Shown: positions 7,991-8,452 of the stretch, one piece after another
Numbering within the stretch: position 1 is the first letter of the stretch
How the letters are laid out: each line of letters begins with the position of its first letter
DNA from: Asticcacaulis benevestitus DSM 16100 = ATCC BAA-896
GTDB taxonomy: Bacteria; Pseudomonadota; Alphaproteobacteria; Caulobacterales; Caulobacteraceae
Length of the DNA stretch: 64,000 bases
Direction: 5' to 3'
Assembly: GCF_000376105.1 (NCBI RefSeq)
Contig: NZ_AQWM01000001.1
Location: forward strand, 310,001 to 374,000
Position numbers and translations under genes: made by a program
The notes under the pieces: model-generated
The model's database searches: none
What the model was told of the DNA's origin: nothing
Seen by the model: only the letters and a program-made list of their open reading frames with translations

Positions 7991-8040
7991 TCAGCGGGCG
8001 CCTTTATTTTCGGACTTACGAAGGTTATAAAGGTTTTGCT

Positions 8041-8081
8041 CCGGACGAGATGCGCCGTACCCGGTCAAGACAAGACGACGC
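8041..8081 (+). ncRNA. Guanidine-III riboswitch (ykkC-III)
   Basis: The 41 bases match, from memory, the crystallised Thermobifida fusca guanidine-III aptamer at all but three positions (each G to A, at 8050, 8068 and 8078). The CCGG of P1 (8041-8044), the CCGGTC block (8061-8066), the ACAAGACG core (8070-8077) and the P2 arms (8052-8058 with 8075-8081) are all present. One P2 pair is a C-A mismatch (8055/8078). It lies 35 bases before the start of a guanidinium exporter gene, the expected kind of target. GCTCC at 8038-8042 could pair with the GGAGC at 8104-8108 that contains the ribosome-binding site, suggesting translational control. Confidence 0.88.
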
Positions 8082-8116
8082 TTTAGTTTGTATCGCGAAC
8101 GCTGGAGCGCATTGTC

Positions 8117-8452
8117 ATGCCGTCATTTATCTCCCTGCCGTGGATCTACCTGATCGTCGCCGGGTTGTTTGAAATCTGTTGGGCCATTGGTCTCAAATAC
8201 AGCGCCGGTTTCACCAAACCTGTGCCGTCCCTCTTTACCCTCGTTACCCTGGCGCTCAGCATGGTGCTGCTGTCGAAAGCCGCCAGCACCTTACCGATCG
8301 GCACGGCCTATGCGGTTTGGGTCGGTATTGGAGCACTTGGCGCGGCGGTGATGGGCATATTCCTGTTTCATGAGGCGGTGACGCCGCTGCGCATCCTGTT
8401 TTTGGTCATGCTGCTCAGTTCTATTATCGGCCTGAAGGCGACGGCGGGTTAG
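8117..8452 (+). CDS. gdx: Guanidinium exporter, SMR family (Gdx/SugE)
   Basis: 111-residue small multidrug resistance protein with four transmembrane helices that works as an antiparallel dimer. It matches the Gdx/SugE subtype: the essential membrane glutamate is in AGLFEICWAIGLKYSAGFT, and LPIGTAYAVWVGIGALGAAVMGI plus a C-terminal IIGLKA are typical. Gdx proteins export guanidinium in exchange for protons; older annotations call them quaternary ammonium efflux proteins. The guanidine-III riboswitch directly upstream strongly supports guanidinium as the physiological substrate. Ribosome-binding site GGAG is at 8104-8107, nine bases before the ATG. Confidence 0.95.
   Translation: MPSFISLPWIYLIVAGLFEICWAIGLKYSAGFTKPVPSLFTLVTLALSMVLLSKAASTLPIGTAYAVWVGIGALGAAVMGIFLFHEAVTPLRILFLVMLLSSIIGLKATAG

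Follow-up and report, generated by a model that had tools for sequence, protein, structure and literature searches.

The guanidine-III riboswitch class, its target gene and the idea that it acts as an ON switch were already known. The closest described system is the Thermobifida fusca aptamer (PDB 5NWQ), an H-type pseudoknot in which nucleotides 10, 15, and 38 form a single base triple, with C15 paired to G38 and G10 in the major groove (PMC5696562; this paper and PMC12186494 are cited throughout for parts of their text). The affinity of the class is quoted there as 60 uM. According to a review, guanidine-III switches translation on and has an additional effect through RNase E (PMC12186494). 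How guanidine-II and -III switches function has been called "less well established," and the relevant part of the structure paper speaks of competing structures that are destabilized, none of them named (PMC5696562). Guanidine-I, -II, and -IV sense the same ligand, have overlapping target genes and are likewise described as ON switches (PMC5696562, PMC12186494); their folds are unrelated to that of guanidine-III.

The window analyzed here, a 64,000-nucleotide stretch of the Asticcacaulis benevestitus genome, was originally predicted to carry a guanidine-III aptamer in front of gdx. This was borne out. In the covariance-model search suggested with that prediction, RF01763 matched positions 8023 to 8084 of the + strand (Infernal/Rfam; 56.1 bits against a gathering score of 36, E = 6.5e-9), and a small multidrug resistance (SMR) family gene lies downstream. 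The letters and coordinates given for the aptamer, and for the GCTCC and GGAGC elements discussed below, agree with the sequence. The model aligns poorly over its first 20 positions, which overlap a probable -10 box; the aptamer core spans 8041 to 8081 on the + strand, corresponding to T. fusca nucleotides 1 to 41 (RF01763 and PMC5696562; window position = 8040 + n). With Rfam gathering scores as the threshold, the window has no match to guanidine-I, -II, or -IV, and its sole other match is a tRNA gene at 1564 to 1637 on the - strand (73.4 bits).

The strands of the H-type pseudoknot are shared with T. fusca. P1 is formed by CCGG at 8041 to 8044 and CCGG at 8061 to 8064, the third strand of the P2 triplex lies at 8045 to 8051, and the P2 strands, placed by the Rfam alignment and PMC5696562, lie at 8052 to 8058 and 8075 to 8081. 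A single C-A mismatch, frequent in the family, falls within P2, where C8055 faces A8078. The bases that contact the ligand in T. fusca, C6, G7, and G17, are present here as C8046, G8047, and G8057. P1 shows compensatory change within the genus, with CCCG/CGGG replacing CCGG/CCGG in 9 of 25 aptamers (4 of 20 plus 5 of 5). By every sequence test available, this appears to be an RNA switch that senses guanidine and precedes the gene of a guanidine exporter, and we would expect it to bind guanidine.

The gdx gene (8117 to 8452, + strand) encodes a 111-amino-acid SMR family protein (PF00893, 92.8 bits, cut-off 23.7). Its best NCBIfam model is NF008512 SugE, and we label the protein SugE-like because its score of 117.7 bits is below the equivalog cut-off of 126. 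It presumably transports guanidinium, given the riboswitch. The gdx ATG stands 35 nt from the end of the aptamer core (8081), with the Shine-Dalgarno (SD) sequence GGAG at 8104 to 8107, 9 nt before the ATG. As in T. fusca, the ribosome-binding site is shortly downstream of the aptamer, at 22 nt compared with 16 nt (PMC5696562). Upstream are genes for an RlmE-like methyltransferase (under equivalog cut-offs) and a DUF1523 protein. In a plasmid search with the gdx protein, all matches had less than 80% identity.

Three residues named for T. fusca, G10, G28, and G38 (PMC5696562), are A8050, A8068, and A8078 here. The base triple therefore reads A10 (8050), C15 (8055), A38 (8078) in the window, compared with C15-G38-G10 in T. 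fusca, and nucleotide 28 is an A. These changes had been taken to make an unusual variant, and three departures, two of them inside one triple, could be read as an aptamer degenerated by the C8055-A8078 mismatch and two further G-to-A changes to the point where it does not bind guanidine. We compared the triple across related aptamers. A pattern scan of genome contigs returned at least 119 stretches, and 127 aptamers were parsed among the matches listed; subtracting the window, 19 genus loci, and the duplicate L127 left 106 from outside the genus.

C15-A38 occurs in 18 of 20 genus aptamers, of which 13 carry A10 and 5 carry G10, and in 36 of the 106 parsed non-genus aptamers of all spacer lengths (among the matches listed; the P2 parser counted C-A as a pair, which may slightly favor this class). 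Among the non-genus matches listed with equal spacer, 25 of 55 have C15-A38; A10 is present in 20 of these 25 and in 0 of the 30 others (Fisher, 1e-10), and counting distinct combinations per genus in the same set gives 15 of 19 versus 0 of 24. Because A10 tracks C15-A38, the changed letters include a coordinated exchange within the triple, one that many family members share. What had looked like an unusual variant is a widespread form, and the covariation across the family marks the A10/C15-A38 letters as a coordinated base-triple subtype, apparently not damage. The retained contacts C6, G7, and G17 and a score well above the cut-off point the same way, and we reject degeneration as very improbable. 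The window locus is an ordinary, well-scored member of guanidine-III.

The original prediction also proposed how the switch works: GCTCC (8038 to 8042) is complementary to GGAGC (8104 to 8108), and this pairing would hide the SD. The general idea, an ON switch acting on translation through a hidden SD, is supported. The pairing extends to an 8-bp helix, helix B (8037 to 8044 with 8102 to 8109 on the + strand), that includes U-G and G-U pairs; its 5' arm is UGCUCCGG. GCTCC had been said to share two bases with the CCGG of P1. The overlap exists; its extent was understated, as helix B takes all four P1 5' bases. The 3' stretch at 8102 to 8109 on the + strand (CUGGAGCG) is contested by a second structure, hairpin C. 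The 5' arm of hairpin C (GACGACGCUUUAGU, 8074 to 8087, + strand) consists of the P2 3' strand and the linker, its apical stem pairs 8088 to 8091 with 8095 to 8098 on the same strand, and its 3' arm (8101 to 8116, + strand, with 8110 and 8111 unpaired) holds the SD and the GUC that precedes the start codon.

We folded the leader in a range of transcript windows. For a 123-nt leader the lowest energy belongs to hairpin C (-31.0 kcal/mol), and forcing P2 to form gives helix B (-24.2 kcal/mol). Nested folding of 21 transcript windows (seven 5' ends by three 3' ends) gave hairpin C a probability of 0.93 to 0.99 and helix B one of 0.000 to 0.022, so the GCTCC/GGAGC pairing does not hold up as the main switching helix. 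Opening the SD is predicted to cost 6.4 kcal/mol in the free leader versus 2.6 kcal/mol with the aptamer locked. From these models and the comparisons below, hairpin C is the better-supported OFF state and most likely the one that hides the translation start.

The predicted balance depends on how far the RNA has been transcribed. Helix B has a probability of 0.99 for an RNA extending to 8109 and 0.97 for one extending to 8113; hairpin C then reaches 0.96 at 8117, shares with helix B at 8121 (0.66 and 0.33), and stays at or above 0.97 from 8125. Since helix B is dominant at the ends 8109 and 8113 and is then displaced, it may be a short-lived folding intermediate, the one role in which it is predicted here. 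Reserving P1 and P2 for the aptamer costs 3.2 to 5.0 kcal/mol at RNA ends 8081 to 8105 and 11.5 to 13.4 kcal/mol from 8109 on, a rough estimate that leaves out the pseudoknot energy. P2 alone reaches a probability of just 0.05 to 0.75 at ends 8081 to 8097 in the nested model. Nested folding can score neither pseudoknot nor triplex, and the ON/OFF balance therefore lies outside these folding results. The jump in the reserve cost after 8105, taken with the class affinity of 60 uM given above, suggests that the choice between ON and OFF would be kinetic, made during transcription.

These predictions fit a mechanism that we regard as probable: a guanidine-III switch at the 5' end of the mRNA in which hairpin C is the OFF state and guanidine turns gdx translation on. 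Without guanidine, 8074 to 8087 would pair with 8101 to 8116 and bury the SD and the bases before the AUG; because the P2 3' strand and linker would themselves pair over the SD region, aptamer and ribosome site would be lost together. If guanidine bound when only about 8041 to 8105 had been transcribed, the pseudoknot (P1, P2, and the triplex) would hold the P2 3' strand, and the ribosome site would stay open for translation of gdx, which would otherwise be poorly translated. Expression would then be expected to rise with guanidine, a direction that the modeled folds support. A point against hairpin C as the OFF state comes from in-line probing as retold in the cited part of PMC5696562, in which P1 and P2 were formed without ligand.

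We then looked for hairpin C in the leaders of the genus. RF01763 matches above the cut-off occur in 15 of 25 Asticcacaulis genomes, and 24 of 25 have a gdx homologue. Five further aptamers (L165 to L169) were found upstream of gdx genes without an Rfam match. An aptamer is present in 22 of the 25 genomes: 17 aptamers precede gdx and 8 precede an open reading frame (ORF) of 289 to 294 amino acids, with 3 genomes having both. We refer to these longer ORFs as EamA from the profile match of a single one, that of L001. The 17 gdx leaders reduce to 14 distinct segments, in which pairs were counted from individual folds because MAFFT misaligned the 3' arms, whose spacer lengths differ.

Hairpin C is maintained in these 14 gdx leaders. 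Aptamer nucleotides 41 and 40 are paired in 14 of 14 and nucleotide 39 in 13 of 14, and the linker positions change on both sides: the first is U-A in 9 leaders, A-U in 4, and U-G in 1, and the second is U-A in 4, U-G in 4, C-G in 5, and unpaired in 1. When the 3' arms were permuted, 1 in 10,000 arrangements was as good among the 14 gdx leaders, and 0 in 5,000 among 20 genus leaders (gdx and EamA together). The predicted switch size in 12 genus gdx leaders was 3.82 kcal/mol versus 0.17 kcal/mol with scrambled linkers, with all 12 above the shuffled mean and 10 of them ranking in the top 10%. The eight EamA leaders gave 4.01 versus 2.51 kcal/mol when shuffled; six exceeded the mean and two reached the top tenth. 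Leader L009 has no predicted switch, and L004 and L009 leave almost no space for hairpin C; the local hairpins of L016, L165, L168, and L169 are weak (z of -0.9 to -1.4).

The same leaders bear on the reading in which helix B is the main OFF state and guanidine-stabilized P1 withdraws CCGG to free the SD. Ranked by energy against 229 other start regions from its own genome, the helix B duplex of the window locus (8 bp, -12.4 kcal/mol) falls at the 3rd percentile, and by this measure is more than chance; helix B also occurs in the nearest relative, leader L021. Its median percentile is 0.44 for the 20 leaders of the genus and 0.48 for 91 from elsewhere (among the matches listed), near background for most, compared with 0.10 and 0.27 (the latter among the matches listed) for pairing by the P2 strand. 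These and the following comparisons control for phylogeny in part only and use script-called starts, not annotated ones, of which at least that of L086 looks wrong; leaving out aptamers with no called start or SD, a start at a distance above 75 nt, or a short frame gave 20 + 91, 20 + 89, or 20 + 92 leaders, depending on the test.

Permutation retains some signal for helix B. A leader's own pairing was compared with permuted pairs, giving z = -2.9 for 112 leaders (5 of 5,000 permutations as good), z = -2.6 for 20 genus leaders (35 of 5,000, and 17 of 5,000 in a second test), and z = -2.1 for 92 non-genus leaders among the matches listed (106 of 5,000); the second test gave z = -1.8 for 89 non-genus leaders among the matches listed (211 of 5,000). 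The EamA leaders show both helices: 6 of the 8 carry a 6-bp version (CUCCGG/CYGGAG), and helix B is strongest in L004 and L005, with ensemble shares of 0.76 and 0.78. Set against this, helix B is weak in the gdx leaders L010 and L012 to L015 (-2.2 to -4.5 kcal/mol), has a 0.00 share of the SD in the 12 folded genus gdx leaders, and in the window falls to the probabilities given above, 0.000 to 0.022, once the start codon is transcribed. As a conserved switch it was rejected after tests of its duplex energy, comparison with background starts, permutation of pairs, and partition-function folds, and as the main OFF state at this locus we consider it unlikely. Its modeled behavior leaves it a possible intermediate and, in the EamA leaders, a possible competitor of hairpin C.

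The probable start of the transcript adds to this comparison. Between 7950 and 8560, neither a + strand promoter, in a simple sigma-70 scan, nor an intrinsic terminator was found. A probable -10 box, TATAAA, lies at 8026 to 8031 (+ strand) and belongs to a [CT]TATA motif conserved in the genus gdx leaders: the motif stands 14 to 17 nt before P1 in 16 of 17, whereas none of ten 12-nt control windows farther upstream has it in more than 1 of the 17. It is missing at that site in 8 of 8 EamA leaders, 6 of which have G[CGT]TA at -23. The conserved box points to a transcript start near 8037 to 8040, which would put the 5' arm of helix B at the extreme start of the mRNA or leave it partly untranscribed. 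An arm at or before the likely +1 is a further difficulty for helix B.

A likely 5' end within a few bases of P1 also suits a different reading, in which mRNA lifetime is what mainly matters: the guanidine-bound 5' pseudoknot would block RNase E scanning, with translation as a side effect. An effect of this kind on guanidine-III was described by Richards and Belasco in 2021, as told in the cited part of PMC12186494. As the main mechanism here we think it quite unlikely, a little more so than helix B, since it leaves both the conserved hairpin over the SD and the scrambled-linker result unexplained. Such an effect could operate alongside hairpin C.

Hairpin C ends in a GUC directly before the start codon, complementary to GAC of aptamer nucleotides 34 to 36, and we asked how general this is. 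GTC stands directly before the start in 6 of 20 genus leaders versus 9 of 229 other starts, and outside the genus in 47 of 91 leaders among the matches listed; of 457 other starts in the scanned loci, taken from frames of at least 200 amino acids, 16 have it; the non-genus enrichment, among the matches listed, has a Fisher value of 6e-29, uncorrected for relatedness. It precedes genes of both sizes in 89 leaders among the matches listed (40 of 78 SMR-size genes, 7 of 11 larger genes), and thinning these matches to one per genus and gene size leaves 26 of 48. For 30 SMR genes in 28 genomes, GTC was found in 7 of 11 with an aptamer versus 2 of 19 without, the 11 overlapping leaders already in the counts above. 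Locus-specific permutation of hairpin C outside the genus gave a weak result among the matches listed (z of -2.3 for 89 leaders and -1.7 for the 48 thinned ones). Among the same 89 listed non-genus matches, 62 exceed the scrambled-linker mean and 26 are in the top tenth, and the local hairpin z is below 0 in 66 and below -1.64 in 30.

Across the class, the conserved 3' core (GACG of nucleotides 34 to 37 plus the P2 strand) might double as an anti-start sequence that pairs with GUC or CGUC between SD and AUG, a proposal to which we give slightly less than an even chance. Among the aptamers outside the genus, some have a shortened stretch before P2, with GACGACG replacing GACAAGACG (L033, L064, L071, L073, L083, L089, L107, and L141 among others), and by sequence these could be a distinct subtype. 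In L163 (G114) and L164 (G014), close homologues of gdx (90% and 88%) immediately follow an rlmE-like frame. No aptamer motif was found upstream of gdx in either, GTC is kept before the start, and from their sequences they look like cases of riboswitch loss with GTC as a relic.

The genus aptamers vary at one further site, between the P1 3' strand and ACAAGACG. Twelve without an insert have 5 nt there. Structured inserts occupy the site in others, of 73 nt in L017 and L018, 31 to 33 nt in L010 and L012 to L015, and 22 nt in L016. In L165 to L169 (G042, G141, G089, G133, and G099) the insert is 72 to 85 nt, and these five had no Rfam-model match in the family and genus searches. The distance from the P1 3' strand to nucleotide 34 is 7 to 12 nt in 105 of 106 non-genus aptamers among the matches listed, and 43 nt in one. 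Under stricter filters, a search of 385 Alphaproteobacteria genomes found none but the window's own genome over the cut-off, and a search of 299 family genomes found 15, all within Asticcacaulis. Absence from other Alphaproteobacteria is soft, as these searches did overlook insert-bearing copies.

A second guanidine-III aptamer in the same genome offers a further close comparison. It lies on another contig (G000:C11:30477-30539, equivalent to L001:1501-1563), scores 56.3 bits, and precedes a 289-amino-acid EamA transporter. It has C15-A38 as in the window; unlike the window, with A10, it has G10, and its SD is shared by helix B (0.30) and a shorter P2-strand pairing (0.35). Compared with the T. 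fusca system, a further difference lies in the OFF state: a P2-strand hairpin can be specified for the window, whereas the cited part of PMC5696562 leaves the competing structures of T. fusca unnamed. Hairpin C supplies a named competing structure that one complementary pair of mutations could test, and the comparison suggests that a strand of the aptamer is itself the anti-start sequence. If the class-wide proposal is true, guanidine-III would share one expression platform, which the cited parts of PMC5696562 and PMC12186494 do not specify; it would set part of the sequence before the start codon and give an extra reason for the conservation of aptamer bases, and in Asticcacaulis it would have been rewired several times by compensatory change around a fixed strand. 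Relative to those parts of the two papers, what is new is an OFF hairpin that can be named and that comparison supports, the A10/C15-A38 subtype, and an insert-bearing lineage, five genus copies of which the Rfam model search overlooked.
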